Positions 30,136 through 63,643 of a stretch of 64,000 bases of DNA are shown one piece after another. The DNA comes from Gautieria morchelliformis (lineage: Eukaryota > Basidiomycota > Agaricomycetes > Gomphales > Gomphaceae), in contig WHVA01000005.1 of the NCBI GenBank assembly GCA_015179125.1, positions 372,001-436,000 on the forward strand, given 5' to 3'. Below the pieces are notes generated by a model that was given only the letters and a program-made list of their open reading frames with translations, was not told the origin of the DNA and did not search any database. Within the stretch, counting starts at the first letter, position 1. The number at the start of each line of letters is the position of its first letter. The translations under genes were made by a program, and so were the position numbers.

Positions 30136-30195
30136 GACGCAGTCAACTAACACTAATAACTGAAAGACGAGCAGTTGTGACACTCCCCAACTCAC

Positions 30196-32496: not shown

Positions 32497-32532
32497 GGTG
32501 TAGGAATGCAGAGCTCTATTATCAGGTGGGAG

Positions 32533-32818
32533 TGTTGAATGGTGATATTAGAAGCCCTATCCATTCTACATTTCCTCTAATTTTCTTGGTATTTTTCTCT
32601 CCAGTAGTTAGTGACTTCTTGTTGACTCTTTGCTTTGTATCTGCGCTTTTTGGCCTGCTTACATAAGCCAAAAAGCGCCAGCTAACAGCTGGGGAGTGTG
32701 GGAGAGTGCCCCTTATCTTGTGCACTCACCACACATCCCCAGACCTGCTGGGGTGTTTGTTAGGCTTATCAGGCTTATCTGGGTTGTTTTAAAGCTCCTA
32801 TAACTTCGCTTTTTTACA
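32533..32818 (+). repeat. 3' LTR of the plus-strand copia copy
   Basis: 286 bp, TGTTGAATGG to TTTTTTACA, preceded by the purine tract AGGTGGGAG. Confidence 0.88.
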
Positions 32819-32837
32819 CCACCTTGGCCCCCAGGAT

Positions 32838-33494: not shown

Positions 33495-34205
33495 TGTTAC
33501 GTATTGAGATTTCCGCTAAGTCGGAACTGGAAAGGACAGCGGCTTCAACTTGTAGGTTGCTGCCCCCAATGAACTATCGTCCTAAGTATTTCGGAACTGA
33601 GTCGGAAGTCAGAAAGTACTGAACCAAAGATTTGGTCGGAACTTGAGTCGGAACTGAGGTGGAAGGCGGAAGACGGAAGGCGGAGGGACTGAGATCTTGC
33701 TAGACTCGCTGTGCTAAGAACAGGAGATGGAGCGAAGGAAATCAAGTATCGAAGGCGATTATCTGATTGCAGAATAACAGACATACATGAGGGGGTTTTT
33801 ATACAAAGAGCTGAGACAACAGGTAATGATAGGGTACTAAGCAAATTCCGGAGGAAGCGGAAGTCGAGTAGACAATGCGTGGGAACTAACTATTTGGGAA
33901 CAATGGGACTACAAGGGGGTTTCGGGGTAAGGTAGAACAATGGCAAAGAACAAGGGGTGGGGAAAACATATCTGACAACGAAACACAGGAGGGCCGGTCA
34001 TGTGGTCTTGATGAACGGTGAGGTGGGTCCGGTGGGTCCGAGTAATAGAGTTGAAAGAACAAGGGAAATGTACAAGGGGCGGAATGTCGGAAATATCGGA
34101 GGGGCGGAATGTGTTGCGGAAATATCGTAGGGGCGGAAGGTGTTGCGGAACTGAGGGTCGGAAGTCGGAATGAACGGTCAGAAGTCGGAATGAACGGTCG
34201 TAACA
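33495..34205 (-). repeat. 3' LTR of element B
   Basis: 711 bp. Compared by eye with the 5' LTR it shows about a dozen substitutions and a few small indels; most substitutions are CG to TG or CA. Confidence 0.93.
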
Positions 34206-34218
34206 GTATCTCCCTTCT
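34206..34218 (-). other. Polypurine tract of element B
   Basis: Minus strand AGAAGGGAGATAC immediately before the LTR start TGTTACG. Confidence 0.65.
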
Positions 34219-34325
34219 AAGGTCGAGCCCCGCGAGACCACAAGTCGGATCACGTGACCTGTGAACAAACGCGTCGGAGTTCGAAAGATAGGCGGGAAAC
34301 AAACGCGTCTTCATCCTTATCCATT

Positions 34326-37048
34326 ATGAGCTCCCAACCAGACCTCAGTAAAATGTCCAGCACTGAAATGGAGAAGTATTTCGACGACCTTCTCGCGCAG
34401 AAGAAGCAGGCTGAAAAACAGGCGGCCGAGGAAGCTGCGCGGAAAGAGAAGGAGCGACTGGAGGAGGAGCGCAAGGAGAAAGAGCGCAAGGAACTGGAGT
34501 GTCGGGAACAGGAGCGGAAGGAGAAGGAGGAGCGTGACCGTAAACGTCGCAAGGAGGAGTCGCGTGTCCGCGAAGAACAGCGGAAACGGGACGCGGCCAC
34601 AAAAGCTGCGGAAGACAGGCCGCGGCGGAGAAGGCGGGAAAAACCCGGGTGAGTCGGAAACGTCATGTGCTTAGTTCTGATGCTGACAGAAGAACTTGGC
34701 AGAAACTAATTGTTGAATCCGATTCCGAGCCGGAGTCGGAAGACACCGCGGAAAGCACGCCGTCCCCTGAGGGGAAGGGGAAACAACAGGAAGTATTTCC
34801 TGTACTGAACCTTGTGGCGGATCGGGAAAGGAGGGCGGACGAGTTTCAACAGGCCAGGAAGGACAAAATGGCCCGCATCATCGATCTTCGGGAGTTGGGA
34901 CCGGAGAATCCCGCGACCCGGAAATGGAAGACGAGGGACGGGGAAGAAGAAAAGGCTCCTTGTGACACATGCGAGGTGAAGGGGCGCGATTGCGTATGGT
35001 CGGAGAATCCGCGGGAAACCGCCTGCGAACTGTGCCACGACAAGAAGAGGCGGTGCGTTGTGGACGGCTGTTCCACGAGGGTTGAGCGGAAAAGGCGGAA
35101 AGTCGAGACCGAGGGGCCAGAGACCCCAAAGTCAAAACCAGGGCCGAGCGGGAAGAAGACGGCGGAAGGGGTTCCGGCGACCGGGAAGGCGAACATGTTG
35201 CCTCTGCTTGACATCTGTTTTGGAACCCTTCAAGACTTTGGTGTTATTGCTAACACTTCAATCTATCAGAACGTGTCGTTTACGAGACTCAAAGAATATT
35301 AAACAATGCTGCAGCACAACTCTTAATATTTGTACCTTGGTTTCAATCCCCGTAAAAACTAGTCCAAGTTAATACGGATGGGAGGCAATGCGTTTCTTAG
35401 CAGCACTGAACAATAAACTAAAAGACTGTAGGTTCAAGGACACTATCGGGGTCCAAGCGTATTCCAAAATATAAAGGAATGTACTTGGCAGGCGAGTTTA
35501 TAAATGGACTGCCCTGATAATCTACCAGCGCACAGCAATAAAACGAGAGGCAAAGAATAGAATCTAAGGCGGCTTTTACAAGTAACAGGAATTGACTTGT
35601 GAAAGATATTAACCAGGAAAATCAACTGATCAACTCTCTCGGGTATTGGAGTGCGAATGGCAAGACTATCAATTGACAGACTCACTCTGTAGAATTACAC
35701 CCGGAGGATTAGTCTAGGTGGCTAAGCAGAAAAGTATCTACTTAACAAGGAATTGGACACTAAAGTAAGTGAATAACCCTAGCTGGGGTTAGCAGCTTAG
35801 TAAGATGCAAGTCACACGAGTCACGTGTAGGATAGAAGCAGTAGATTGCTAGATTTGATTCTTCTAGGGGGTCAGAATGGCCTCCTTTTATATTGTAAAT
35901 TACACAGGATTACGTAAAATGGGGAGCTTCTATCTATTAGGCAAGTGATGTCATAAGTAAATATTTGCGCAGCTAAAACACACCCTCGTAACTATAGTGG
36001 TGTGTTTGTGCAAGGAAATTAAGAATAGATAGCCAATCACCTTCCCTGATTTGCACTGCCCAGCATAGCCTTACACAGCCCTGCATAGCCTTGCATAGCC
36101 CTGCATAGCCCTGCACAGCCCTATGATGTCAAGGGTCCTATTTCAGGGGTTGTGGCACTAAGCTTGGAGGCTCAGCATCCAATAAGATTGCTTGATTATG
36201 CACCCTAGTTTTGGCTCTGCATATCATTGGGCAGTCTTGCACACAGCCTTACACAGCCATGGTTGCTATGAGGCAAGTCATGTGTCTGCTGGGTTTGAAC
36301 TATATTTAAGTGTACAGGCTTGTGTAAGCTGCACCGGATATTCCCAATCTCACCAGCTGAGATTGAAAGAGCCAAAGTGTCGGAGTTGTGGGTGTTTGAG
36401 GCCGTGCGGCTCTGAATAAGCGCGTTCGAGGATCGCTCCGGTCGGAGTTTGAAATTGAGCGCCGATGACAAAGTTATGGACTCTCATGGGTTCATAGCCT
36501 TTGTCAAACACAATAAAGCAGTTTTGAGCCAAGGAGGTCAGGACAATTGGCGAAAAATGCAAGAAAATTCAAGGAATATTCTAAAAACAGTTCCCCATCA
36601 AAGCTGCGTGTATTGGCTGATGTTAAGATGGGAAAAAGGTTTTTACAGACTTTTTAATGCTTTTTTCGAGATTTTTAAACTAGAAAGCTGGTTCCTACAC
36701 AACATCGCTGAGTCTCTGAGGGGTATCCGGAGATCCCAGCGCGGGATCCGGAACACACTCGAGGAGATGTCCGTAGTTCAACAGCAACAGCTGTTGACCT
36801 TCCAAAACCAGATGACGGTTTTGTCGGCGGTTGTGGAGCAAATCAAGCGGGACTTCCAGTGGCGGAACAACATGCTCCGGGAACGAATGGAGTGGAGGAT
36901 GCAGGAGGAGGATGGGGGAGAAGCGGGTCCGAGCCAGATGGTGGATACGAGGGTGGAGACAGAGTTGGCGAATGTGCCGATAGGGCATGTGCGAGAGGGT
37001 GCGGAAGCGGAGAATGAGGAAGAGGCGGAAATGATGAGGGAGGAGTAG
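34326..37048 (+). pseudogene. Antisense spliced Zn2Cys6/coiled-coil gene of element B, split by insertion
   Basis: Runs opposite to gag-pol between the 3' LTR and the end of pol. ATG at 34326; exon 1 encodes a Glu/Lys/Arg-rich coiled-coil-like protein. A 41-nt intron (34649-34689, GTGAGT...GACAG) joins exon 2 in frame (phase 2). Exon 2 has acidic/Ser sequence, then C-X2-C-X6-C-X10-C-X2-C-X6-C (CDTCEVKGRDC, CELCHDKKRRC), the Zn2Cys6 spacing, followed by a basic stretch. At 35215 a 1,486-bp insertion with ACATC repeats splits it. Skipping the insert, the frame resumes at 36707 with a Gln-rich helical segment and an acidic tail, ending at 37046-37048, for 396 aa in all. Probably nuclear and DNA- or chromatin-binding (inference). 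Element C has a counterpart. Confidence 0.7.
35216..36701. mobile_element. 1,486-bp TG...CA insertion with ACATC duplication
   Basis: Begins TGTTTTGGAACC and ends GGTTCCTACACA, a 12-bp imperfect inverted pair. ACATC flanks it (35211-35215, 36702-36706). Homologous to 60011-61569, which has its own duplication. No transposase or polymerase ORF. Contains an 11-bp-period run (CATAGCCCTG, 36060-36122). Most simply a large solo LTR; a TIR-bearing non-autonomous element is the alternative. Confidence 0.8.
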
Positions 37049-37177
37049 GGTGTCAAAAGACTTGTAGATAATTTCTTGAAGTGTCGGAAAATAGAGTAAC
37101 AGAAGATTAATCGGATTTTACCAATGACTTGAGAACTGTAAGAAAGCAATGGGTGTCGGAAATGATGTCGGAATTGA

Positions 37178-40100
37178 CTAGGGCGCGGAAATGGGGCCAG
37201 GCTTATCAGGATAAGACTTGTGAAAATCAGAGACGAGGTCAGAGGCGTGGTCTAGTTCCGTGGCGGAAATCCACAAGGTCTCTTCGTCGGTGTTTTCATA
37301 GCCTGTCCACTTGACTAGGTACTGGAGTTGGCAGCGGTATCGTCTGTCGAGCTTGGAGTTGAGAATTTCTGAGATCTCATATTCCGGTTCTCCGTCGATG
37401 ACGACTGGCGGAGGCGGAGGTTGTTCTCGATTCGGAATTGCGTTCGGAACTGCTGGCTCAAGCATAGAGACATGGAGTACCGGATGTACTGCGCGCATAT
37501 TGTCAGGAAGTCTGAGAGTGAAAGAACGACTGCCGGCCTTAGCGATGATCTCGTAAGGGCCAAGGTATTTCTCAGAGAGCTTCTTCGAGGGGCGAGTGGT
37601 GCGGAAGTTTTCAGCTTTGACAAAGACTTTGTCGCCTATCTCGAATGCCGGTTGCAGAAGTCGTTTCCGATCAGCGGAAGTTTGGTATCTCTTTTGTGCA
37701 GCGGAAATGTTCTCTCGGAGGTGTGGTGAAGGTCGTCAAGTTCCACAACGAAATCTTGGGCTCTTGCAGAGGCGAGGTCGCGTTCAGGGTGGATGGCAAG
37801 ATTCGGGTGGTAGCCTTTGTTGGCGTAAAAGGGTGAGATTCCGATGGTGGTGGAAGGCGCATTGTTGTAGGCAAATTCCGCTAGGGGAAGAAGGTCGGAC
37901 CAATTGCTATGTTGGTAGTTGCAATAGACACGGAGATACTGCTCAAGGGTCTGATTAGTACGTTCCGTCTGTCCGTCTCCTTCGGGATGATAACCGGAAG
38001 TGAAGTGGAGCTTCATGTTGAGAGCCTTGCCGAGCGTGTGGAAAAAGGATGACATGAATTCGGAACCACGGTTGGAAGTGACATGGGAAGGAATTCCGTG
38101 CTTGGAAAAGTCGTGGAGCACGAAGAGCTGTGCGAGTTGGGCGGAAGTTATGGTGTCGTAGGTCGGAATAAAGATGGACTGCTTTGTAAGGCGGTCAACA
38201 ATTACTAGAATGGTATCGTAGCCAGATGACTTAGGAATTTTCTCAATGAAATCCATGGATATCGAATTCCACGGTTGTTCCGGGATCGGAAGTTGCTTCA
38301 GGAGGCCGTAGGGTTTGTGACGTTGAGGCTTGGCTCGCATACAGGTGGTGCATGACTTGCAGTAGTCTTGGACCATCGTGCGGAGGAGAGGCCAAATGTA
38401 GGTACGTCGGATTATGTCGAGGGTTTTGTTCTGGCCTTGGTGTCCTGAGAGCGGGTGATCGTGGCTTTGCTGGAGTACGCGAAGTCGTAGATCGTTGGTA
38501 TCCGGAATGTAAATCCGGGACTTGTACTGGAGAAATCCGTTGGAATTGAGGGACCATCCAGGACTGGTAGGGTCATCGAGGTGGGCTGCGGAGATGGGGT
38601 CGGAACGAAGTGCGGAATGGATGTCGGAATGGAGAGACTCGGTGTCCATAATAATTGAGGCGTGGAGTAGCGGAAACTGCAATGCTGTAGCACGCAGGGA
38701 CGATGCCAGTTGCTCAGTGGAGAATACTGGGCGGAAATTGTGCAGATTAACGCTGGCATAGTCGCTACTTCCCTCTTTTGGGTAGACGTCCCAACGTCTA
38801 GTGAGCGTGTCGGGTTTTGCTCCGAGCTTTCCGGGGTGGAAGTAGATCACCATGTTGAACTGTGAGAGGTATTCAGACCAGCGGACTTGACGGCAAGTCA
38901 AAATCTTAGTAGTTGCAAAATACTCAAGGTTCTTATGATCCGTTACAACGTCGATCGGATAGGTTGGACCTTCGAGGTAGTGTCTCCAAATTTTGAAGGC
39001 TTCGAAAATCGCAAGTAGTTCCTTATCGTGGACGTCGTAGTTGAGTTCCGGGGCGGAAAAGGTGTGGGAATGAAAGGCGATCGGATCAATTTCTCCGTCG
39101 TCGGGGGAAATGATGGAAAGAATGGCGGCTAGCGCGTAGTCGGAAGCGTCGGTTTCGAGTACAAGTTGGGCATCAGGAATCCAGAAACCGAGTATGGGAG
39201 CCGTGGTGAAGGCCGATTTGAGGGCTTCAAATGCGGAACAGCATTCCGGAGTGAAATTCCATGAGGCACCCTTCCTGGTGAGACGCGTGAGCGGAACAGT
39301 AATGTCGGAAAAATTATAAATGAAACGCCGGTAAAAGTTGGCAAAGCCAAGGAAGGACTGCACATCCTTAACACGTCGGGGTTCCGGCCATTCTTGAATT
39401 GCCTTGACCTTGTCCTCTGCCATGGTAAGACCCGTAGGGGAGAGGATGTAGCCGAGGTATTCGACCGTGTCGCGATGCCATTCACATTTCTCTGCTTTTG
39501 CGTAGAGATGATGTTTGCGTAGACGGCGTAGTACTTCGCGGACATGTTCCCGATGTTTTTCCGGTGTGTCGGAATAGATGAGGATGTCGTCAATGTAGAC
39601 TAGGACGCATACGTCAAGGAGGTCGGAAAATACGTCGTTCATGAATCACTGAAAAGCAGCGGGAGCATTGGTTAGACCAAAAGGCATGACAACCCACTCA
39701 AAAGCACTGTAGCGGGTGCGGAAAGTGGTTTTCCACTCGTCACCTTCCCGGATGCGGACAAGGTGATAAGCGTGCCGGAGGTCAATTTTGGTGTAGATCT
39801 TCGCCCTGCGGGGAGTGTCGAGTAGGTCGGAAATGCGCGGAAGCGGATATTTGTCCTTCTTAGTGAGGGCATTGAGTCCACGGAAATTGACGCAGAGGCG
39901 GAGAGATCCATCCTTCTTCTTGACGAAGAGGACCAGAGCGCCGTGCGGAGACAGCGAAAGGCGGATGAAACCCATGTTGAGATGTTCATCGACGAACTCT
40001 CGGAGAGTTTGGAGTTCACTTTGCGAAAGAGAGTAGATCGGTCCAAGGGGCGGAGATGCTCCTTCTTCCAAATCTATCTTCAGATCGTAAGGTCGATGTT

Positions 40101-40884
40101 CAGCAGGTTTATCGGCTTTGGCCTTATTGAACATGTCCGGGAAGTCACGATATTCTTCCGGAACTGAGCTCATGTCGACCGGAGCGGAAGTCGAGGCGGA
40201 ACGAGCCTTGACTGAAGCCGAATCGGAAAGGTGAAGCTGGAAAACGGTCGTATCCTCTTGCCGTTGCAATACGCGGAAAGCGGTGGTGGAAACGAGCGCA
40301 ATTCGAGGAGCTTTGAGGGACGGAGGTGCTAAAGCGGGACCGGAGTGCGGAACTGAATCCACGAGCGGAGTTGCAGAAGAGGCCTGAGCCATTTTTGCGG
40401 ACGACGTCGGAATAGACGGAAGTTGATCCGGGGTACGGAACTGTATTTGACCCAATGCCCAGTTAATCGACGGATTATATCGGGTGAGCCAATTGTGTCC
40501 TAGTACAACGGAACAGCTAGCATCTAGCGGAGTAACGTAAAACGTAACTTCATGGTTGTCCCCAGTAGCGAAACGGATAGACAGATCCACGACTTGAGAG
40601 ATTGCCGTGTTGGAAGACCCGTCGAAAAGGCGGAGCGGAATAGTCGGAATGTTGCGGGTCGGAAGTTTATGTTTCAAAACAAAGTTGGAATCGAGGAAAC
40701 AATGAGTCGAACCGGAGTCGATCAATGCGGTAAACGGGGGTGCGGAAATTGTGTCGGAAGTGAGCGGAACAGAGAGGGAGTCGGAGGACGAAAGAGCGGA
40801 TGCGTTGAGTTTAACCTCGTTTGTCGCACGAATGGGGCCAACACAGCCCTCAGCTCGTGCGGAGGCTGGAGGACTGCTGACTAT
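37178..40884 (-). pseudogene. Element B Pol: protease, RT, RNase H, integrase, chromodomain
   Basis: Enters in the -1 frame at the gag stop. Protease [12 protein letters not shown] with VYIDDILIYS (about 39590); RNase H ETDASDYALA; integrase zinc part (HPLSGHQG, CKSCTTC) and core DFIEKI...ERTNQ. The second catalytic Asp is Asn (TSNRGSEF, codon 38073-38071), one CpG-type change. A TGA at 39648-39646 (AFQ-stop-FMNDV) replaces the Arg of PAAFQRFMN-type relatives. A 1-nt indel near 37722 changes frame before the ISAAQKRYQTSADRK region, and the chromodomain follows (EYEISEIL, VKWTGYEN, 37450-37200). Stop at 37180-37178. Four independent lesions make it inactive. Confidence 0.93.
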
Positions 40885-42290
40885 TTTTTTGAATCCGCAG
40901 CGGGAGCCGCTTCGGATTTCTCTTCCATCTTTGCTGTGCGGCCCTTGGCCTTAGCAGCGGAGGCGGAAGCGCGAGTGCAGTCGCGAGCGACGTGACCGCC
41001 TTTGCCGCAGAAAAGGCAAAGGTTGTTGTCCATGCGACGCTGACGTTCTACAGGGGTTAGTTTTCCGTCCTTCCCAAGTTTGTCGGAAAGGTCCGGAGTG
41101 CTTTTCTGGGCGTTGGCGTTGGAACCAGAGGCCTGGTTGTTGCGAGGGGTGGAGTTGTTGTTCCAGTTGCCGGAGTTGGATCCGGAACTGTTGTTGTTGT
41201 TGTTGTTTCCGGAGTTGTTGTTTCCGGAATTGGTCTTCTTCTTGTCTTTATCAGACTTCTTGTCGGAAGACTTGTCGTTCTTGCTCTGGGTGGAGGTTTC
41301 GCGAGCGACCTTGGAATGTCTTTCCCAGTAGTGCGAATTGATGGATTGGGCGAGGTTGCGGAGGTCGGTAAGGGTGGCGGGTTTTCCGACGCGGGCAATT
41401 TCATCCTTGATGCGGGATGGCAAGCCCATGTAAAACTGGCGTCGGAGTGCGGCTTCTCCCCATCGGACTCAAGGAGCAAGCTGCTGGAACGTGACAATAT
41501 ATTTAGCTATCTTATGAGTGTCTTTCATTCGAAGCTTATCGAGTTCATTTTCCGCATCGGCTTCCATATCAAATGGTCCGAAGTTGCTGCAGAGTTCGGA
41601 AACGAAATTGTGGTAATCGTCGGCCCAGTCGACGAGAGCGAACGGATCCATGAGGGCGGGTTCGAAGTAGTCGAGAGCCATGCCTCGGAGATAGGAAAGG
41701 GCGTAATTGACCTTTCGTTCGTCATCGGGAAAGGCGTCGGGACGATCACGGAAATTGAGTTGAAGCTGGACCAGAAATGGCTGGAGCTTCTTGGGGTTGG
41801 AACCGTCGAACTGATCTGGTTCGCAGACCTTTGTCTTAGGGCGTGGTGGTGGTGCTTGGGCCGGGCGCTGAAGTTGTCCGGCTAGCATGGCGATGGCTTG
41901 TGCAAGATCCGGAACTGGCGCGGGCGGAACTGGGTTGGCAGGAATCTGAGGTGGAATTGGAGGTGGAGGACCGCCGGGTGGGCCACCATGAGGGCCGCCT
42001 GGAGGGGGTCCTGGTGGAGGTGGTGGTGGTGGAGCTGGGCATCGGAATGACGCTGCTGTTTGTTCGCCGCTGCTACTCGTCGAATTCCCATCATAGTCGG
42101 GATTGTCGTCGGGATTAGCGTTGGGAACTTCTTCGAATCGTTGCGGAAAAGCATCGGAGAGCTCATCGTTGGCATGAGAGCTGCCGGAGGGTTCCGCGTG
42201 CCTTGGTGCTGCAGATCTGAGACTGCCAAAATAAGAGAGAGCTTCCACAGCTCCTGCTCGAGCTGAAGTAGCTATGGTACGAGGAGGCAT
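40881..42290 (-). pseudogene. Element B Gag
   Basis: ATG at 42290 (MPPRTIATSARAG). Pro-rich linker, then the capsid domain (CEPDQFDGSNPKKLQPF, LRGMALDYFEPAL, NFGPFD), an Asn/Ser-rich linker and zinc knuckle CLFCGKGGHVARDC. One in-frame TGA at 41471-41469 (QLAP-stop-VRWGEAAL) where CGA would give Arg. The capsid is homologous to the gags of C and D. TAG at 40883-40881. Confidence 0.92.
40884..40890 (-). promoter_or_regulatory. Candidate -1 frameshift heptamer A_AAA_AAA
   Basis: On the minus strand seven A residues precede the gag TAG (40883-40881) in the register TCA AAA AAA TAG. Slipping back one base opens the pol frame (ATA GTC AGC ...), which is open from here through the protease. Confidence 0.65.
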
Positions 42291-42323
42291 AGTGATAGTT
42301 ATCGGGTGGGAATCAGATAATAC

Positions 42324-43020
42324 TGTTACGTATCGAGATTTCCACTAAGTCGGAACTGGAAAGGACAGCGGCTTCAACTTATAGGTTGCGCCCCCGATGA
42401 ACTATCGTCCTAAGTATTTCGGAACTGAGTTGGAAGTCAGAAAGTACTGAACCAAAGATTTGGTCGGAACTTGAGTCGGAACTGAGGCGGAAGGCGGAAG
42501 GCGGAAGACGGAAGGCGGAGGGACTGAGATCTTGCTAGACTCACTGTGCTAAGAACAGGAGATGGAGCGAAGGAAATCAAGTATCGAAGGCGATTATCTG
42601 ATTGCAGAATAACAGACATACATGAGGGGGTTTTTATACAAAGAGCTGAGACAACAGGTAATGATAGGGTACTAAGCAAATTCCGGAGGAAGCGGAAGTC
42701 GAGTAGACAATGCGTGGGAACTAACTATTTGGGAACAATGGGACTACAAGGGGGTTTCGGGGTAAGGTAGAACAATGGCAAAGAACACTGGGTGGGGAAA
42801 ACATATCTGACAACGAAACACAGGAGGGCCGGTCATGTGGTCTTGATGAACGGTGAGGTGGGTCCGGTGGGTCTGAGTAATAGAGTTGAAAGAACAAGGG
42901 AAATGTACAAGGGGCGGAATGTCAGAAATATCGGAGGGGCGGAATGTGTTGCGGAAATATTGTAGGGGCGGAAGGTGTTGCGGAACTGAGGGTCGGAAGT
43001 TGGAATGAACGGTCGTAACA
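42324..43020 (-). repeat. 5' LTR of element B
   Basis: 697 bp, TGTTACG...CGTAACA. The internal region begins GTATTATCTGATTCC on the minus strand directly after the LTR; no classical TGG primer site is seen. Confidence 0.93.
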
Positions 43021-43270
43021 CATGTTCAGGTTGCTATTGCCACTGTTCCTATCATCATGCACCCTGAAATTCATAATCCATATGTGTACAACATGTGTGA
43101 CAAGGCAGGCGCTATGTATTAGATTGTCTGCGATTAACCACCCTCATGGCCATTATCGCACCCACAGCAAGTGGACTTGACAGCCATGCCTGTGGATGGC
43201 GTCTGACCCACAATCTGGAATGCACTCCCATTGAAGGTGAGTTTGCATAACAAGAGCTCTAAAGGTCTCG

Positions 43271-50488: not shown

Positions 50489-51051
50489 TGTAAGGACCCG
50501 GCCTTTGGCCGGCTACTTACCGGTAGAACCTTCTTCCGAGCCCCAAGCCTTGTGATATCCGTGCCCGAGTACATATGATACTTATCCGCGCCCGAGCCCG
50601 AGCCCGAGCTTGAACTCATATCCGACCTTGATCCCATGCCCATATCCCCCTTAGTTACTGATTCCGCTCCATCACGCATCATTCGTATATTACCTCGCCC
50701 TGACCTCGGTCTCCTGACCCCGCCCTGACCTCCACTAATCTGTTCGCCCCTGACTTGCACCTCGTCCGTATATAACCCCCTTGTATGCATTCCTACTCCT
50801 CAGTCGGAAAATCAACTATCGTGTCCCTTCGATCCCTAGCTAGTTTCTACGCCTCGCCTCTTAAGCTAGAACCTCGCCTCTTATTCGTTTACCTCCGAAG
50901 TTGGGACTCGTGCGTAGGGTCGGTGCAGCACATAAGCTGAAGCCAAGTCCCTCTCCGACTTCCCCATCCAAACCTCGCCCTGTAACCTCGGACCTTGACT
51001 TGGGTTTCGTCCCCGACCTCGGTCAACCTTACGACGGATCGTATCGTAACA
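50489..51051 (+). repeat. 5' LTR of element C
   Basis: Starts TGTAAGGACCCGGCC, ends ATCGTAACA. A TATATAACCC motif near 50770 is a possible TATA box. The internal region starts GTATTTTCAGACTGC. Confidence 0.95.
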
Positions 51052-51094
51052 GTATTTTCAGACTGCTTACACCCTACGTATCCCTTTTTTCACG

Positions 51095-52327
51095 ATGTCC
51101 ATGATAACTCGTTCTCGCACCCTTCGGGGTATCTCAGAACAGCAACGTTTCTCGGAAGCCCCCGATGACTCACCCCCGTCCCCGGGGATACCCCTCGCAG
51201 ACCCCGCCGAGCCTAGTAACAAAGGCAAAGGTAGGGCTAACCTCGGTGACCCTTCAGGTGATCCAGGTGATGGCTCTAGAAGTTCTGACAACGATCGGGA
51301 CCTCCCCAACCTTCCGCCCGAGGACCTCGGTGACCTCGAGGACAACGAGCTTATGCGTCGAGTGTTCATCAAACTCGCGAAACCTCGCGAATCCGAAGCA
51401 CGAGCCAAGGTCAAGGAACCGGATAGTTATGACGGTACTGACCAAGCCAAGCTTCGCACTTTCTTCCTTCAATGTGTACTCAACTTCAGAGATCGCCCCA
51501 CCGCGTTCAAGACTGGGGCCTCAAAGGTGCAGTATGCTATTTCTTACCTGTCCGGCTCGGCTCTGCAATATTTCGAGCCGGCGATCCTCGGCGAAGTCCA
51601 ACCCGAGCCAGATTGGCTCGAGGACTGGGACAGCTTCAAGGCCGAGCTCGAGCTTAACTTCGGCCCATACGACAACGCGGCCCAAGCCGAGATTGACCTC
51701 GAGAAGATCGTTATGAAAGAGCACCACAAGGCCGCGCGATTCTTTATCGATTTCGCCCGAGCTTCGACTCGGACTCAGTGGAACGACGCGGCCCTCCGAC
51801 ACTTTGCCTATAAGGGCTTGGCCAAACGAATCAAGGACGACTTACTTCACTTCCCTCGATTCCGCAGCCTCGCCGAGCTTAGGAACTTCGCGCTGGAATG
51901 CGATAGCCGTTACTGGGAGCGAAAGGAATACGACGCCATGATCAATGGTCGTAGCTCCCAGCCTGCACGCACCCCTAATCAGTCCAGTAGCAATGCCACT
52001 AACAACCACCAGCCTTCCAGTGGTTCCAATAACAATAAGAACCGCAACAAGACTAACAACAGCGGCAAGGGTTCCAACAACAACAACTCTTCAAACAACA
52101 AGAGCCAGCCCGACATTTCGAGCAAACTCGGGAAGGATGGCAAACTGCTTCCCGAGGAGCGCCAACGTCGGGTCGACCAAGGCCTTTGTCTGCTTTGCGG
52201 CACCAAAGGTCACGTCGTCAAGGACTGCCCGAAGAACAAGTCTACCAATAGTAGCGGTTCTAAAGGTCGGGCAACGAAGACCCCTAACGAGGGGACTTCG
52301 GCCTCCATTACGGAGGTGAAAAAATAG
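51095..52327 (+). CDS. Element C Gag
   Basis: ATG at 51095, 410 aa, intact. Acidic/Pro-rich N terminus (MSMITRSRTLRG), capsid domain (YDGTDQAKLRTFFLQC, YLSGSALQYFEPAI, NFGPYDNAAQAEID), Asn/Ser-rich linker and zinc knuckle CLLCGTKGHVVKDC. Forms the particle and packages RNA. Stop TAG at 52325-52327 follows AAA AAA, the proposed slip site into pol. Confidence 0.95.
   Translation: MSMITRSRTLRGISEQQRFSEAPDDSPPSPGIPLADPAEPSNKGKGRANLGDPSGDPGDGSRSSDNDRDLPNLPPEDLGDLEDNELMRRVFIKLAKPRESEARAKVKEPDSYDGTDQAKLRTFFLQCVLNFRDRPTAFKTGASKVQYAISYLSGSALQYFEPAILGEVQPEPDWLEDWDSFKAELELNFGPYDNAAQAEIDLEKIVMKEHHKAARFFIDFARASTRTQWNDAALRHFAYKGLAKRIKDDLLHFPRFRSLAELRNFALECDSRYWERKEYDAMINGRSSQPARTPNQSSSNATNNHQPSSGSNNNKNRNKTNNSGKGSNNNNSSNNKSQPDISSKLGKDGKLLPEERQRRVDQGLCLLCGTKGHVVKDCPKNKSTNSSGSKGRATKTPNEGTSASITEVKK
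52318..52324 (+). promoter_or_regulatory. Candidate -1 frameshift site G_AAA_AAA before gag TAG
   Basis: Register GTG AAA AAA TAG. A one-base backward slip enters the pol frame (ATA GGT AGC ...), which has no stop until the protease. Same placement as in element B, where the heptamer is A_AAA_AAA. The leading G makes this a weaker match to known slippery sites. Confidence 0.5.
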
Positions 52328-55300
52328 GTAGCAACCTCGGAACCACACGATCTGAGGATTGCGGTAACCTCACCCGTGTGCTCAGACTCAGCGCCGCTTC
52401 TCATTCATTGTCCAAAGATTCCCTTAATGTAGATCTAACCTCGCCTTCGCTTCCCAACGTCGCTTTTGTTGCATTAGTTGACTGCGGGTCCTCAGACTGT
52501 TTTATTGAATCCAGATTTGTCCAGAAGTACTCCATGCCTGCTTATCCTGTCTCTCCTATACCCTTGAAACTATTTGACGGTAGTACTAACACTACCATTA
52601 CCCAAGCTCTAGACCTCTGCATTTGCTTTCCGACCGGCGAACAACAATGGGTTACCTTCTACGTAACCTCGCTCGACTCAAGTTGCTCGATGGTACTTGG
52701 CCACAACTGGCTCACCCGCTACAATCCGTCGATTGACTGGGTATTGGGCAGTATTATTTTCAAGACCATCGACCTAACAACGACTCCAGCGACCCCGGCG
52801 ACGTCAGCCCGCTTAGCTTCGGCTACGACTTCGACCTCGCCTACGGCATCTTCGCCACCGCCTCCGACCTCGCTTCCGAAATTGCAAGCACCCCTCGTTT
52901 CCCTAATCAATGCACCCGCTTTCATGCGCGCATCTCGATTGGAAGGGTCCGAAGTGTTTCAGCTCAATTTGGCTTCGCCTGAGCTCCTCGCCAGAGGGGC
53001 AACATCGGGAGGAAGCTCTTCCGAGCTTCCTGAGAACGTTAAGAAACATGTTCCCGAAGTATATCACGAATTTGCAGATGTGTTCAGCAAAGCATGCGCT
53101 GACACTCTAGCTCCCCACCGACCTCACGATATCAAAATCAACCTCGAAGAAGGGACCTCGCCACCTATCGGTCCCATCTACTCTCTCTCAGCTTCCGAAC
53201 TCAAAGCACTTCGCGAGTTCATCGACGAGCATTTAAACATCGGTTTCATCCGACCTTCACGCTCGCCTCATGGTGCACCGGTATTGTTCGTTCGCAAAAA
53301 AGATGGCTCACTTCGGTTGTGTGTCGACTTCCGAGGTTTGAACAAAATCTCAAAAAAAGATTGGTATCCATTGCCATTGATTGCTGACTTACTTGATGCT
53401 CCAAAGAATGCTCGCATCTATACGAAAATTGACCTTCGTCACGCTTACCACCTCGTACGGGTGGCCGAGGGTGACGAATGGAAGACCGCCTTCAGGACTC
53501 GCTATGGGTCTTTCGAATGGTTGGTCATGCCATTTGGTCTCACTAATGGCCCTGCTGCCTTCCAGAGATTCATGAACGAGGTGTTCGCCGACCTTTTGGA
53601 CGTTTGTGTGGTGGTATACTTGGATGACATTCTAATCTACTCCAGTGACCCCTCCAAACATGTTGAACATGTCAAGGAAGTCTTGCGACGACTACGACTC
53701 AACAACCTCTTCGCCAAAGAAGACAAATGCGAGTTCCATCGCGACTCGGTTGAATTCCTCGGCTACATACTCTCTCCCGAGGGCCTCACTATGGCAGATG
53801 ACAAAGTAAAGGTCATTCAAGACTGGCCTGAACCTCGCAAAGTTCACGACATCCAATCCTTCCTCGGCTTCGCCAACTTCTACCGACGTTTCATTCACAA
53901 CTACTCCGACATCACCATTCCTCTCACCCGACTTACCCGCAAGGGTACCCCTTGGAATTTTTCCGAGGATTGTCGACGGGCTTTCAACCTGTTGAAGAGG
54001 GCGTTCACTACCGCCCCTATCCTTACTCACTGGATTCCTGACCTTCCACTGATCGTAGAGACTGATGCATCAGATTATGCCTTAGCGGCAATCTTATCAC
54101 TACGAACCTCAGAAGGCGAACTTCATCCCGTCGCTTTCCACTCCCGCACATTCACCTCTACCGAGCTCAACTACGATGTTCACGACAAGGAGCTCCTCGC
54201 CATTTTTGAAGCCTTTCAACGCTGGCGACACTACCTAGAGGGCTCAGGCGAACCAGTTGACGTTATCACCGATCACAAGAACCTCGAATACTTTTCAACT
54301 ACGAAGCTCTTGACCCGTCGACAAGCTCGGTGGTCGGAATACCTTTCCCAGTTCAACCTCGCCATACGCTTCCGACCAGGTCGCCTCGGAACGAAGCCTG
54401 ACTCTCTCACTAGACGATGGGACGTCTACCTTAAAGAGGGGAATAGCGACTATGCCACCATAAACCCGCAGAACCTACGGCCAGTGTTTACTCAGCACCA
54501 GCTGGCATCGTCCCTTAGAGCTACTAACCTCGCTCCCATCGTGCTCCGAGCCGCTTCACTGCTTGATACCGAGCAGATCCGAGCTGACATACTAGCGAAC
54601 CTCCCCTCGGACCCCATAGCCAAGTCGCACCTCGGCTTGGTTAATGACCCGAGGTGGACCACAGACCCCGAGGGTTTCCTCAAGCTTGACAACCTAACCT
54701 ATGTTCCAGGGGCCCAAGACCTTCGACTTCGCATCCTGCAATACAAGCACGATCACATCCTCTCGGGACACTTCGGGGTCAACAAGACCTTGGAGCTGAT
54801 CCGATGAGACTATACTTGGCCGGGGATTAGATCCTTTGTCAAGGATTATTGCAAGACGTGTACCACTTGTATGCGAAGCAAGCCACAACGTCACAAACCC
54901 TATGGTCTCCTCAAGCAACTTCCTGTTCCCGAGAAACCTTGGAATTCCATCTCTATGGATTTCATTGAGCAACTCCCCCCTTCATCCGAGTTCACCTCCA
55001 TCCTAGTGATTGTTGACCGCTTCACTAAGCAGGTTATCTTCATTCCAACCACAGACAAGATAACCTCGCAAGAGCTCGCTCACCTCTTCGTTCTTCATGT
55101 CTTTTCAAAGCATGGAGTCCCCTCGCACGTCACCTCGGACAGGGGTTCCGAGTTTGTTTCGCGCTTCTGGCGTTCCCTAGGGAAAGCTTTGGACATGCGG
55201 TTGCATTTCACCTCGGGATATCATCCCGAGGGTGACGGTCAGACCGAGCGTGCTAACCAAACTTTGGAACAGTACCTCAGGATCTATTGCAACTATCAGC

Positions 55301-56037
55301 AGTCCAATTGGGCTTCGCTCCTTCCCCTAGCCGAGTTCGCCTACAACAACGCGCCTAGCGCAACCACCGGCGTCTCCCCATTCTTTGCCAATAAAGGCTA
55401 CCATCCGAACCTCGCAGTTCACCCCGAGCGCGACCTCGCCTCGGCACGAGCCCGAGACTTCGTGGTTGACCTGGACGAGCTTCACCAAGAACTTCGCCAC
55501 GCCATCCTCGAGGCTCAGAAAACTTACCAAGCCTCGGCCGATGTTCGTCGCAAGCCCGCTCCTGATTTCCAAGTAGGATCCCTCGCCTTTGTGAAGGCAC
55601 AGTACTTTCGAACAACTCGGCCTACCAAGAAGCTCGCCGAGAAGTTCTTGGGTCCTTTTGAAATCATTTCCCGAGCGGGTACTCACTCCTTCACCCTTCG
55701 ACTTCCAGAACACATGCATTCAGTCCATCCGGTCTTCCACGTATCTATGCTCGAACCAGCCTCGCCCAACACCATACCAAACCGAGTTCAGCCGCCTCCG
55801 CCCCCAGTCGTTATCGACGGCGAACCCGAGTTCGAGGTTTCCGAAATCCTCGACTCGAAGATCGATAATAGACGCAAGAGCTGCAAATTACTCTACCTTG
55901 TTAGGTGGACTGGTTACGAAGGTACCGACGAAGAAACCTCGTGGATCCTCGCTTCCGAGCTTGATCATGCCTCGGAGCTGGTCACGGATTTCCATGACTC
56001 TTACCCGGGCAAGCCCGGCCCTTTGACTGCTCTATGA
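52324..56037 (+). pseudogene. Element C Pol: protease, RT, RNase H, integrase, chromodomain (one TGA)
   Basis: Continuous frame of about 1,237 codons except TGA at 54805-54807. Protease LVDCGSSDCF; RT with VVYLDDILIYS (YLDD codons 53616-53627); RNase H ETDASDYALAAILS and the TDHKNLEYF block; integrase zinc part (HDHILSGHFG, CKTCTTC) and DDE core (DFIEQL, SDRGSEF, DGQTERAN), all catalytic residues present; chromodomain (FEVSEILDSK, VRWTGYEG) near 55820-55960. The TGA lies between the zinc-part histidines and cysteines, where element B reads Arg-Arg-Thr, so CGA to TGA is likely. Otherwise it looks functional. Confidence 0.94.
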
Positions 56038-56078
56038 TCATTTTCCTTTGTTAACCCCCATGACCCCAGTAGTTAGAT

Positions 56079-56098
56079 AAAAAAAAAAAAAAAAAAAA
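56079..56098 (+). repeat. A20 run after the pol stop
   Basis: Twenty consecutive A residues 42 bp downstream of the pol stop, in the convergent space between pol and the antisense gene. Confidence 0.9.
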
Positions 56099-56164
56099 CC
56101 CTCGCAATCGAACAACAAAAAATCGATAAAAAACCAAGAAAAGCCTATTATTCCATTTACTAGT

Positions 56165-57284
56165 TCACTCCACCATCCTCATATCCTCTCCCTCGCTCCC
56201 CTCGCTACCCTCACCTGACTCCTCCTCATTACTACTACTACTTCGCTCCACCAGACCCCCATGTCCCCCATGATCTGCCAAGTCCCTCGCCCCCTGCATC
56301 CGCTTCAAATAATTCCGCCTCCTCCTTATCCTCATGAACTCCACATCCGCCCTGTTCATCCTGTCATTAGCAGCCCTAAACTCCCCTAGCAACTCGCACA
56401 CCCTCTCCCCAACCTCGCCAACCTTCTGTCCCACATCCCTCACCGCCGCTATCAACTCCCTCATCTCCGCACTTCGCTCCGATCTTTTCGTCTTCTTGTC
56501 CTTTTTCGCCCTCCGACCTCCAACCTCGGTTTCTGTCTCCTCACGCTGCCTCACTTCCCCAGTCTCCTTACCCTTCTCCTCGCTCAACCTCGCTTCCATC
56601 CGCTCTACCCTCATCTCGAGGCTCCTCTCGACCCAATCACTCGAGTCGTCGTCCTCTGCAACTTCGTCCTGAACCTTGGCCTCTTTCCTCGGCCTCGGTC
56701 CATCCTCGGCCTCCTCGCTCCTCGCTCGCTTCTTGCTCGCGGTACCCGCCTGACCCTTGCCTGGGGTTGCCTTGCTGCGGCGACCTTGGGCGATACTACA
56801 ACCCAAGGAACGGGTCCTGCACCACACGCAAGCACCCTGGTCGGCGAGGCCGAAGTCGAGACTAACGGCCCGAAGGCACGTATAGTCGCGCTCTTCGCAG
56901 CGCGCGCACCTCGCCTCGGCCTTGGTCGCGAGCTGCCACTCGCGAGGTCCCCCGTCGGCGAGCTTGTACCCGTATAGGGACAAGTCGGTCGGGTGGTAGG
57001 AGAATAACATGCGTTTATACTAGACAAATCAGCAGCGCCCATGATTAGACAACTACGGTACTCACCTTCTTTCCACTCGGTCCTTCCTGCCACGGCTGCC
57101 GCATGTCGATGGCCCCCGTCTCATCAATTGGCAATGTGCCAACCTCGGGTCGATCCTCAGGCGTAACCTCGCCCGAGGCTCCATTCTCCTCAGACAACAA
57201 AGTCTGGTCGAACGCGTTGTTCACGCTGTTCTCGTCGACGGCTGAGCTGAAGAGGGCTTGAGGGCGCACCATATTAGTTGGCAA
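56165..57284 (-). CDS. Antisense spliced Zn2Cys6/coiled-coil gene of element C
   Basis: Opposite to gag-pol, starting ATG at 57284, 162 bp from the 3' LTR, and ending 128 bp from the pol stop. Exon 1 (57284-57066, 73 codons) is acidic; a 46-nt intron (57065-57020, GTGAGT...GTCTAG, with CTAAT branch-like site) joins in phase 0 to exon 2 (57019-56165). Total 357 aa. Exon 2 has C-X2-C-X6-C-X15-C-X2-C-X6-C (CARCEERDYTC, CVWCRTRSLGC), a Zn2Cys6-like cluster with a long loop, a Lys/Arg-rich segment, about 120 residues of charged heptad-like sequence and an acidic tail. Intact. Same place, direction and domain order as the element B gene. DNA binding and regulation of the element are inferences. Confidence 0.72.
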
Positions 57285-57432
57285 TGGGGTTCGCTGCCTT
57301 CCTACCCACCCTTTTTTCCAACCTCGGCTACGATTTAAGCTTCGCCTTTCCGGCTACTTAACATCGGACCGAGATCTAGATTCAAGGATAGGCGAACCTT
57401 GTTCACATTACGGCCTCGAGGGTCTCGGCCAT

Positions 57433-57445
57433 AAGGGGGGAATAC
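57433..57445 (+). other. Polypurine tract of element C
   Basis: AAGGGGGGAATAC immediately before the LTR start TGTAAGG. Confidence 0.75.
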
Positions 57446-58008
57446 TGTAAGGACCCGGCCTTTGGCCGGCTACTTACCGGTAGAACCTTCTTCCGAGCCC
57501 CAAGCCTTGTGATATCCGTGCCCGAGTACATATGATACTTATCCGCGCCCGAGCCCGAGCCCGAGCTTGAACTCATATCCGACCTTGATCCCATGCCCGT
57601 ATCCCCCTTAGTTACTGATTCCGCTCCATCACGCATCATTCGTATATTACCTCGCCCTGACCTCAGTCTCCTGACCCCGCCCTGACCTCCACTAATCTGT
57701 TCGCCCCTGACTTGCACCTCGTCCGTATATAACCCCCTTGTATGCATTCCTACTCCTCAGTCGGAAAATCAACTATCGTGTCCCTTCGATCCCTAGCTAG
57801 TTTCTACGCCTCGCCTCTTAAGCTAGAACCTCGCCTCTTATTCGTTTACCTCCGAAGTTGGGACTCGTGCGTAGGGTCGGCGCAGCACATAAGCTGAAGC
57901 CAAGTCCCTCTCCGACTTCCCCATCCAAACCTCGCCCTGTAACCTCGGACCTTGACTCGGGTTTCGTCCCCGACCTCGGTCAACCTTACGACGGATCGTA
58001 TCGTAACA
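57446..58008 (+). repeat. 3' LTR of element C
   Basis: Same length as the 5' LTR; four transitions separate them, all at CpG positions. Confidence 0.95.
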
Positions 58009-58215
58009 GAAGCTCACATGAGGAAATGTATGGAATGCATGACCTGAGCTCAGAGGTGTCAATGATGGGATTGATGGGACTTTGTAAAACCTACTCATAA
58101 TCAATGGATTATCTTGAGCTCAGGAGTCAATGGGGGTATTTGATCAAAAAACATAATGCCTGGCTTGGTGCATCATCGGTTTGCACCATATCTCGCAGGG
58201 CACTTCATGGCCATG

Positions 58216-59786: not shown

Positions 59787-60010
59787 AGGCATTCTATTAC
59801 TGCGCACACAACAGCATCCACTGGGTTGGCATTCATGTTGCATTTCCACGCTGTACAACATCATCTGCTATGGGTTGGGATGCAAAGTTGGGACCCCTCC
59901 TGTGAGATTATCCCATGGTCACAAATCATGCATAACATCCAGTGGCTCCGGAAAGGCTATTAGCACTGGGCTGGCGCTCATATTCCATTACTGCCCTGCA
60001 CAACAGCATC

Positions 60011-61569
60011 TGTTTTGGAACCCTTCAAGACTTTGGTGTCAGAGCTAACACTTTGGTCTATCAGAACGTGTCGTATATGAAACTCAAAGAATATTAAACA
60101 ATGCTGCAGCACAACTCCGGAAATAATTTAATATTTGTACCTTGGTTGCAATCCGCGTAAAAACTAGTCCAAGTTAATACGGATGGAAGGCAATACGTTT
60201 CTTAGCAGCACTGAACAATAAACTAAAAGTCTGTAGGCTCGAGGATGACTATCGGGGTCCAAGTATTCCAAAAAGATAGGAATGGCTTCACAGGAGAGTT
60301 TGTAAGTGAAATGACCCGATTAACGTCAATGCACTGCAATAAACGAGCGACTAGGGTTTAAGAAGTGACTTGTGAAAGTCACTGAACAGGAAAGTCACTG
60401 ATCAGTTCGTCTCAGGTATTGGAGAGCTAATTGACAAGGAAATCGATTGTCAGACTCACTCTGCAGAATTTCACCTGGAGTGTTAGTCCGGGTGGCTAAG
60501 TAGAAACGCAACTACTTAACTGAGAATTAATACACTAAGTAAGTGTAATAACCCTAGCTGGGGTTAGCAGCTTAGTAAGCTGTGCAAGCTTGGCAAGTCA
60601 CACGAGGTACGTGGATAGTAGATGATGATGTATTGGCTGATTCACTGCTAAAACTGCAGGCTATTTATACTGCATCTATCTAGCTTATGTAACTACTGCT
60701 AGGAACCTTGTAGAAGCTTCTACTACTGTGAAGAACCTTGTGGAAGCTTAGAGAAGCTTCAGGAAAGGTTTGGAAACTATTGGAAGGCTGTGGAAGGTTC
60801 TATTGCTATATTGGGTTAAAGTCACAGCTCTGTGACAGTAAAGCTAAGAGTATGTAAGAAACTCCCACGCTCATGTGATTATCATGTGACGAAGGAAAGT
60901 CATGTGACTTCAAGCTGGATTGAGGTCATGTGATGGTGTCATGTGATTGTCAGGTGACCGTAGATAATCAGGTGACTTTGAGGTCAGGTGATTGTCAGGT
61001 GACTGTAGATAATCAGGTGACTTTGAGGTCAGGTGATTGTCAGGTGACTGTGGATGATCAGGTGACTTTGAGCTTTGAGGTCATGTGATAGTCATGTGAC
61101 CATGGGGGATTCTTAGCTAAACTATCAAGAGATTGTTGTATCTTGTGGACCCAATGTGAGTGTAGCTATGGCACAGCACAGCCTAACATAGCCTTGTTGC
61201 TATGGTAGCATTGGGCAGAGTTTGTATTGCACAAACTGTGTTGTAGAGGCTTGGGAATAAATTGCCATTTCCAGAGTGCTGAGTCCGAACCGGTAGAGTG
61301 TCCACAGGCTCGAGTTCGGGCTCGCGCGCGTCGGAGTTTGAATAAGCAGAGTTGTGGATACATGTGGATTCATAACTCTGCTGCAACAGAATAGAAGTGT
61401 TTTGAGCCAAAGACTTCATTAGAAATGGCGAAAAAATGGTAGGAAATTAGAGGAAGTTTAAATAGTTCATCCCCAATGATAGCAATACCAGTATGCTATA
61501 TTTTAAGGTCACTATTTCGAAAATACATGGAATTTCTCCTATTTGACCGGCAAAGCAGGATCCCATACA
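60011..61569. mobile_element. 1,559-bp TG...CA insertion with GCATC duplication
   Basis: Sister of 35216-36701: starts TGTTTTGGAACCCTTC and ends GATCCCATACA. GCATC flanks both sides (60006-60010, 61570-61574). No ORF of note. About 70 bp longer than its sister, partly from the 45-bp repeats at 60943-61075. Confidence 0.82.
60943..61075. repeat. 45-bp minisatellite, three units
   Basis: Unit of the form GATTGTCAGGTGACTG, TAGATAATCAGGTGAC, TTTGAGGTCAGGT, repeated about three times inside the 60011 insertion; surrounding GTCATGTGA motifs extend it loosely. Confidence 0.75.
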
Positions 61570-61756
61570 GCATCCACTGGGATGGCATTCATGCTCAATT
61601 TCTGTGCTGGACAACATCATCTGCTGTGTGTTTGGATGCAGAGTTGGGACCCCTCCCCTGAGATTATTGCATGGTCTCACGTCATGCATAACCTTAAGTG
61701 GCTGCAGAAAGCCTATTAGTGCCAGGCTGACGCTCATGTTCCATTACCATGCTGCA

Positions 61757-62709
61757 TGTTAAGACCCATTCCTGAGTCCGGACCCGAGGCCTCGGCCTCG
61801 GATCTCGCTCAGGAACCCTTCTCGGCTTAACTCAGGTTCCTATCGGTTCATTATTCACCCTGACTTCCTTTCTTAGATAATCCTGTTCTATTTCTGATGA
61901 TTGTCCATCTACCCTTCTTCCTGCTCGATACAGGCATTGATGCCCTCTTTCCATTCCTTGCAATTAGTATATAAACCCTCCATCATGTACACTAAATCCT
62001 CAGTTCTGATAGTGACTTAGATCCTCGTATCTCTCCACTTCTCTGTCTGATCTATTGGGTGCATGCTCCTGCACCAAAATCAAGCATAATATATTTGATT
62101 TATTGTATGGTGTTCTCATTCTTTCTCACATTGTTCTTGTGCCATGCATCCACTTCCCTGATTATTTTCGAAATTTTCTGGTCACTCCTTATCTTTCTAT
62201 TTTGTTTTGTTTTCTTTATTTTCACAACCGGCTCCACCCAGCGGAGTTTGAAATGACTTTGACATACGAGCTCGTGGGTGCTAAAGGGCCGGGTGCACGT
62301 ATATGCATTCTGAGACAGCATAATGCTCCTCTCTCAGTGACAATAAATTCACTGAGAGAGGCAAGTAGTATTCTTTATTTTTTCATAGCATGTTGACCCA
62401 AAATCATGTAGTGAATTTGATTCTAGGTATTGTATTAATATAACAGTGACAATAAATTCACTGAGAGAGTGAATTTGATTCTAGCTTTCTAAGAATTCCA
62501 CAGAACCTTCCCTGCCATAACCTGAGTTGCCTACATGATCTCATTTCTGAACCTCGGCTTGAAGCCCAATCCGTTCCCAAATCCATTTCCCAAAATTAGG
62601 GCGAAACACTGTATTGGGCACAACCTACAAAGTTGAAGCCAAGCCCTCTGTTCCCGAACCTCAGCTCGGCCCTTGTGTTGAGTCTTAAGTATGACTTATA
62701 TTCTTAACA
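61757..62709 (+). repeat. 5' LTR of gypsy element D
   Basis: TGTTAAGACCC...CTTAACA ends. 953 bp against 449 bp for the solo copy at 21124; the excess is about 62070-62480 and contains the CTCTCTCAGTGA palindrome and a duplicated GTGAATTTGATTCTAG, so it probably includes a secondary insertion. GTATATCAGAACTC follows the LTR. Confidence 0.75.
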
Positions 62710-62743
62710 GTATATCAGAACTCTCCACACACAGTTGTTCGAT

Positions 62744-63560: not shown

Positions 63561-63643
63561 GCGTTGAGGCGGCAGGTATTCATAGTCCGAATAGACACCA
63601 ATCGCCGGGTTTAGGGTGGCTAATCGTGGGGCATGGAGAGTAA

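Follow-up and report, generated by a model that had tools for sequence, protein, structure and literature searches.

In the genome of Gautieria morchelliformis, the Ty3/gypsy chromovirus that we call element C carries, on the strand opposite to gag and pol, a spliced gene that encodes a zinc-cluster-like protein and, to judge from its sequence across copies, is almost certainly real and under selection, with a working intron. Antisense genes are also found in families B, E and G, and a short CpG-containing word is repeated through these elements; the word is dense, specific to the family and present in a preferred orientation, clearly so in B and C and less so in E. The reading that we favour, by analogy with known systems, is that the gene encodes a self-addressed DNA-binding protein which acts on the copies of its own family with a net anti-silencing effect, and we assign the whole of this chain a probability of roughly 0.4 at best.

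The window, by which we mean the whole stretch of 64,000 nucleotides that was analysed, contains one copy of element C at 50489-58008, with the gypsy order of LTRs, TSD, gag, reverse transcriptase, RNase H, integrase and chromodomain (Table 1). Its two LTRs are identical at 559 of 563 positions, and its pol is interrupted by a single in-frame TGA (54805-54807). The antisense gene occupies two exons between 57272 and 56165 on the minus strand and lies between pol, whose stop is at 56037, and the 3' LTR. An earlier reading, made from the sequence alone, had placed a gene of 357 amino acids here; the gene and its place stand, and the length becomes 353 amino acids when translation is begun at the in-frame ATG at 57272. 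The six cysteines that it had described, spaced CX2CX6C-X15-CX2CX6C, are present at positions 38, 41, 48, 64, 67 and 74 of exon 2, and all six are intact in 46 of 50 copies. The charged, heptad-like sequence that it had remarked upon is also there, since the charged stretches, including the C-terminal charged region, look by eye like coiled coil.

Table 1. Positions within the window of the features of elements B and C.
Feature	Position	Strand	Remarks
Element B	33500..43030 (approximate ends)	-	layout as in element C
Element B antisense zinc-cluster gene	34328..37048	+	decayed: frame-shifted and split by an insertion
Element C 5' LTR	50489..51051	+	TG...CA; preceded by TSD GAAGC at 50484-50488
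Element C gag	51095..52327	+	Retrotrans_gag PF03732; zinc knuckle below cut-off
Element C pol	52288..56037	+	RVT_1, RNase H, integrase core, SH3_Tf2-1, chromodomain
Element C antisense gene, exon 2	56165..57019	-	284 codons and stop; zinc cluster, linker, conserved charged C-terminal region
Element C antisense gene, intron	57020..57065	-	46 nt; GTGAGT...CTGAT...TAG; GT-AG, phase 0
Element C antisense gene, exon 1	57066..57272	-	69 codons; ATG 57272-57270
Element C 3' LTR	57446..58008	+	followed by TSD GAAGC at 58009-58013
Element C word CCTCG	50489..58008 (counted to 58010)	.	over LTR, gag, pol and antisense gene; 78 sense, 20 antisense

The case for a genuine gene is carried by its copies. 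Exon 2 matches at least 184 places in this 122-Mb genome, a lower bound because scoring covered 137 of the 573 candidates of a first look, and most of the matches listed are without a stop. Among the 30 best-matching C loci, exon 1 lies upstream of exon 2 in all 30, and the integrase/chromodomain end is convergent beside the antisense gene in 29 (the exception being L030). When these loci, which include the window copy, are combined with 20 drawn from more divergent matches, the resulting 50 copies have on average 0.18 stops in the gene frame of exon 2, as against 14.0 and 16.9 in the alternative frames of the same strand and 3.4-4.8 in those of the opposite strand; an in-frame stop occurs in seven of them. 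For 26 representatives less than 95% identical, drawn from the same 50 copies, dN/dS in exon 2 is 0.188 (codon bootstrap 0.150-0.233), and two shifted frames of the same DNA give 1.16 and 1.10. The stop counts per frame and the dN/dS values rule out a chance open reading frame, and the presence of many copies inside one element family rules out a single host gene. A dN/dS near 1 across copies had been named beforehand as an outcome that would count against the gene, and the value found is 0.19.

Constraint is not uniform along the protein. By segment, dN/dS in exon 2 is 0.144 at the N-terminus, 0.122 in the zinc cluster, 0.353 in the linker, 0.256 for residues 121-170, 0.116 for residues 171-246 and 0.202 in the tail. 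Exon 1, in 47 copies, gives 0.25-0.46 by bin at dS above 0.05 and 0.75 among near-identical pairs, and the integrase/chromodomain piece of C gives 0.08-0.34 by bin in 21 copies. Because the copies were collected by protein similarity, decayed copies are under-represented among them; it is unlikely that this bias alone is the source of a dN of 0.086 at a dS of 0.461.

The intron can be followed through the same set. In all 48 of the 50 copies in which it could be bounded, a donor GTRAGT (GTGAGT or GTAAGT) stands 45-48 nt before an acceptor YAG (TAG or CAG), and in 47 of the 48 a branch-like CTGAY (CTGAC or CTGAT) lies within the last 22 nt, the remaining copy, L072, having CCGAC; the 46-nt GT-AG intron with a branch-like site that had been proposed at 57065-57020 is thus borne out. 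The interior of the intron has diverged between copies, unlike its splice signals, and the donor is present even in four copies with an apparent frame shift in exon 1. Judged by these signals, the intron is real. Because the intron runs antisense to the genomic RNA, splicing would not remove it from the template of retrotransposition, and this would allow a retroelement to keep it.

Not every copy of the element retains the complete gene. Other full-length copies without the reading frame had been named beforehand as a further outcome against the gene. Among the matches listed, a convergent antisense match within 900 nt, with a median gap of 122 nt, accompanies at least 104 of 150 C-type integrase/chromodomain copies. 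Two of the other 46 were inspected, and both have the gene with its zinc cluster deleted. In L093 the deletion is in frame and the neighbouring pol frame has 1249 amino acids, and in L094 it is out of frame; zinc-less derivatives therefore exist, at least one of them beside an open pol. Both deletions have short direct repeats at their ends (overlaps of 9 and 14 nt), which by eye contain the family word.

The usual spacing of a fungal Zn2Cys6 cluster is C-X2-C-X6-C-X5-12-C-X2-C-X6-8-C. The X10 of family B and the X8 of family G fall inside this range and the X15 of C falls outside it. The pattern had been called typical of fungal regulators, which is too strong: the Pfam gathering cut-off for the Zn_clus family PF00172 is 21 bits, and among 18 C copies that were scanned none matches it at E<=1, while B reaches 12.3 bits in the window copy and 16.2 bits in L045 (four of six copies matched, best E 0.0071) and G reaches 10 bits, all below the cut-off. 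The element proteins resemble fungal Zn2Cys6 factors in their six cysteines and, by eye, in a coiled-coil-like stretch, and differ from them in that C combines X15 with an acidic first loop and in that the genes are element-borne and antisense. In our judgement the zinc cluster probably binds DNA. Protein searches, which need shared 5-residue words and one of which scored the best 8000 candidates by words in common, found no relatives beyond Gautieria, the only matches being the Gautieria proteins P0001 and P0002; P0001 is an annotated protein whose best place in the genome matches it at 92-98%. A search of solved structures gave two weak coiled-coil matches for B (E 0.076 and 0.14) and none for G.

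Element B has an antisense zinc-cluster gene of its own with the X10 spacing, as the sequence-only reading had stated; the separate intron that it had assigned to this gene is not supported, since the same bases are coding in open copies (L045). In such copies the gene has no intron and encodes about 410 amino acids, with a long charged N-terminal stretch, the zinc cluster and a second coiled-coil-like stretch. Its dN/dS is 0.19-0.36 by bin (11 copies, five of them with a stop), and the chromodomain is convergent with it at 27 of 30 loci (the exceptions being L039, L043 and L066). A profile comparison aligns the B and C antisense proteins over the zinc cluster only, and weakly (E 0.0088, probability 4.6%), as against an identity of about 75-79% between the integrase/chromodomain regions of the two families over longer uninterrupted matches. 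The insertion of about 1.2 kb which splits the window copy of the B gene (about 35212-36416) shares repeats D8/D9 with 60007-60245 and is probably another mobile element with two copies in the window.

Family G, at L092, has its own antisense gene, ending in CX2CX6C-X8-CX2CX6C, and family E (L005, L089 and L090) has one akin to it, in which no zinc cluster was seen by eye in two copies. The E piece and the G-type protein P0001 match the same places, C138 and C401 among them; E and G are not independent, and the sample of families is small. In the open reading frame lists no antisense gene was recognised for element A or the copia element, nor beside the family F pol in L091, the 3' LTR of F being unmapped. 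Two frames were not counted as antisense genes, a plus-strand frame of 162 amino acids at 209-697 opposite the sense ORFs of A and a minus-strand frame of 204 amino acids in L091. The P0001 match at C170:54657-56349 joins a G-type N-terminus to a C-type C-terminal region, beside a C-type chromodomain, which in sequence terms is an apparent domain swap between antisense genes.

The family-specific words emerged from an unbiased scan of 5-mers and 6-mers, in which the control for coding DNA was a set of synonymous-codon shuffles that keep both the protein and the codon usage; the coding sets overlap slightly, by about 40 nt in C and 100 nt in B. Over both strands, element C contains CCTCG/CGAGG 98 times against 25 expected, with 49 occurrences of ACCTCG, and element B contains TTCCG/CGGAA 131 times against 27 expected (106 sense and 25 antisense for TTCCG); in E and G the word is TTCGC, or GCGAA on the reverse strand. 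Against the shuffles the top both-strand 5-mer is CCTCG in the gag-pol of C (60 against 26.9, z 7.3), CGGAA in B (79 against 27.4, z 13.3) and GCGAA in E (33 against 15.6, z 6.8). The whole G locus has GCGAA 42 times against 11.9 under a dinucleotide model (z 8.6), and in G gag alone GCGAA ranks fifth against synonymous shuffles (z 3.2). No comparable word stands out in the controls A, copia and F, whose top both-strand 5-mers are unrelated words with z of 3.3, 4.1 and 3.5 and whose top 6-mers have z of 4.3, 4.7 and 4.2, and in copia single-strand counts TTGCA reaches z 4.4. Codon usage as the cause of the words is ruled out by the synonymous-codon shuffles, and CpG-richness alone by element A, which is CpG-rich and has no enriched word. 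As a separate observation, a 4-kb stretch of family F in L091 (C251:34000-38000) has GAGTCA/TGACTC 20 times against 3.3 expected, and this is not among the top words in the coding part of pol.

Each word stays dense throughout its own family. All 30 C loci have 9.1-16.1 CCTCG per kb and 1.3-4.7 TTCCG, and all 30 B loci have 8.7-19.5 TTCCG per kb and 2.2-5.1 CCTCG. Within C the density is 11-20 per kb in gag, pol and the antisense exons and 12-14 in the LTRs. Within B the density peaks in the LTRs at 23-26 per kb; it is 12-16 in gag, pol and the zinc part of the antisense gene and 6.3 in the coil part of that gene, and there are no words in the 138 nt before the gene or in the insertion. In the LTRs nearly all words are in the sense orientation, with sense:antisense counts of 8:0 and 7:0 for CCTCG in C and 15:1 and 16:2 for TTCCG in B. 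The complementary word also exceeds the shuffles for CGGAA in B (21 against 8.1, z 5.3) and for GCGAA in E (13 against 5.1, z 4.4), and does so more weakly for CGAGG in C (11 against 5.6, SD 2.0, in pol; 5 against 3.1 in gag). The commonest forms start with GCG on one strand, namely GCG-GAA in B, GCG-AA in E and G and GCG-AGG in C, and TCG-GAA in B and CCG-AGG in C are nearly as common.

On one strand the words recur at an average interval of about 90-95 bases. By eye there is no clear helical period in their spacing in C; in B there are 13 pairs at 12 nt. Were each word a selected site, its synonymous positions would be expected to vary less from copy to copy than those of comparable sites. 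When a real copy serves as the reference, word sites are not more conserved between copies than other CpG 5-mers, a result that speaks against this expectation: CCTCG ranks 8 of 15 in the C integrase region, where CTCGG ranks 2 of 15, and 4 of 10 in the C antisense exon, and TTCCG ranks 7 of 9 in the B gene. Either it is density that matters and not each site, or the enrichment has another cause.

CpG methylation followed by deamination usually leaves a low CpG content together with high TpG/CpA. Over whole stretches, the observed/expected ratio of CpG is 1.05 in C, 1.12 in B, 0.93 in E and 0.96 in G, and among the controls it is 0.95 in A, 0.33 in copia and 0.46 in F, with 0.48-0.49 in the flanks. 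At codon junctions the ratios are 0.94, 1.04, 0.93 and 1.13 (gag) for C, B, E and G, and 0.86, 0.23 and 0.13 for A, copia and F. In 2-kb steps along the window, the ratio is 0.26-0.66 outside A, B and C, and in the steps that lie mainly inside them it is 0.84-1.19. All four gene-bearing families have thus escaped CpG depletion, as has one of the three controls, and since that control is element A, where no antisense gene was recognised, the escape does not need such a gene.

In the favoured reading, transcription from an antisense promoter close to the 3' LTR would yield an mRNA whose protein would use its zinc cluster for DNA binding and its coiled-coil-like part to dimerise or to recruit. 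Its targets would be the CpG-containing words of its own family, CCTCG in C, TTCCG in B and TTCGC in E and G, for which the word data provide partial support; that the protein does read the word of its own family we regard, on the sequences, as an even proposition. The sequence-only reading had not mentioned these words, and they would supply its idea of a regulator with a concrete target. Since the words are spread through the family's copies, the protein would address the whole body of the element and not one promoter. The most likely effect would be to protect these copies against CpG methylation and silencing, much like the action of VANC proteins on the VANDAL elements of Arabidopsis, which are DNA transposons. 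CpG content bears on methylation indirectly, and the link from word to protein is one that we infer. In its fullest form this would be an element-wide anti-methylation system in which antisense zinc protein and CpG word have diversified together, partly by synonymous choice, as would be the case if a CG core shared by all families, with an extension specific to each, were read by related zinc clusters; we advance this version tentatively, with the odds rather against it.

The evidence must be weighed against what other explanations would predict. An ordinary auto-regulator, that is, a zinc-cluster factor which acts up or down on the LTR promoter as a form of copy-number control and has no role in the element body, would have the layout of many fungal transcription factors, a zinc cluster with a dimer-like stretch, and would find its sites in the sense-strand words of the LTRs (8 and 7 in C, 15 and 16 in B, where the LTRs are the densest part). 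It is nevertheless unlikely, because the gag, pol and antisense exons of C are as dense as its LTRs, gag, pol and the zinc part of B still carry 12-16 words per kb, and an excess of words over synonymous shuffles in gag-pol is something for which a promoter regulator has no need. The strong sense-strand bias of the words, 78:20 in C and 106:25 in B with the LTRs included, would also suit a signal in RNA, in which Gag or the antisense-encoded protein would bind CCUCG or UUCCG in the genomic RNA and so serve its packaging or stability. Against such a signal, which we hold to be improbable, stand the complementary words, which are likewise above the shuffles in B and E and more weakly in C; moreover, arrays in one orientation are also found in VANC21, a system that binds double-stranded DNA (PMC5735166).

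The words could also have nothing to do with the protein, which would then do something else, and could be a by-product of mutation or reverse transcription, through template switching at short repeats or escape from CpG decay. Their unexceptional conservation fits this account, as do the word-containing direct repeats (seen by eye) at the ends of the L093 and L094 deletions; that element A is about as CpG-rich and has no enriched word, and that families whose pol is closely related have different words, retained in 30 of 30 C and 30 of 30 B loci, makes it doubtful. Finally, the finding of no relatives outside Gautieria in the protein searches would suit a host gene captured by chance in antisense and without function for the element, yet such a passenger is very hard to reconcile with a dN/dS of 0.19, with splice sites kept across many copies and with distinct genes at the same place in several families.

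Two parts of the picture that we favour are already known from other systems. Antisense accessory ORFs between pol and the 3' LTR, with a TRP28 domain and predicted DNA binding, occur in plant Retand elements, which are non-chromovirus Ty3/gypsy (PMC11963269). Those elements differ from the present ones in host (plants, not fungi), in domain (TRP28, not a zinc cluster) and in that about half carry tandem-repeat arrays, and the main text of that paper, as available, mentions neither intron, "fung-" nor zinc and describes no dispersed family word (PMC11963269). Self-targeting through a dense word is known from VANC, in which an element-encoded protein is likewise paired with a dense, family-specific word in one orientation and related proteins have different targets; the sites of VANC21 lie at high density in the same orientation, and its function is suggested to depend on their density and not on each site (Hosaka et al., PMC5735166). 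The C antisense gene likewise provides an element-encoded accessory protein under selection. The VANC word is the 9-base YAGTATTAY, mainly non-coding and often in tandem repeats, and its binding was shown by ChIP-seq and EMSA (PMC5735166), whereas the words here have 5-6 bp, contain CpG and lie in coding DNA too, and binding by the fungal antisense proteins is inferred. Fungal transposons, including those of Agaricomycetes, carry TET/JBP dioxygenases proposed to act against DNA methylation; these are enzymes on DNA transposons (PMC12730594), in contrast to a putative DNA-binding protein on LTR retrotransposons. The available text of a paper on fungal chromoviruses (PMC2864245) does not mention the terms antisense, additional ORF, zinc finger or opposite. 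In the literature searched, which mostly did not extend to subscription papers, no intron-bearing conserved antisense accessory gene of fungal chromoviruses was found among the papers listed, nor was the combination of fungal LTR retrotransposons with an intron-bearing antisense zinc-cluster gene and family words.

If the favoured reading is true, LTR retrotransposons join plant DNA transposons in evolving sequence-specific proteins that find every copy of their own family and act on it, and the address is written into protein-coding DNA. It would also explain the CpGs kept by some elements amid CpG-depleted surroundings, would make antisense placement a way for a retroelement to keep an intron-bearing gene, and would furnish a natural collection of short zinc-cluster proteins whose predicted DNA words can be tested.

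Other elements of the window have features of their own. Element A, a gypsy element on the minus strand at 1-9044, has two overlapping extra sense ORFs after pol (793-2145 and 119-1264), over which no Pfam family passed the cut-off; with these and its kept CpG, it may carry a different counter-defence gene. The copia element at 24031-32831 contains an inverted partial second copy of itself (repeats I1 and I2). A further gypsy family, D4, begins in 61755-63643, with a gag frame at 62903-63643, and has among the matches listed many copies, often with stops; it is weakly enriched in AACCT/CCGAG, and the top single-strand word of its 741-nt gag is CCTGA (z 4.1).
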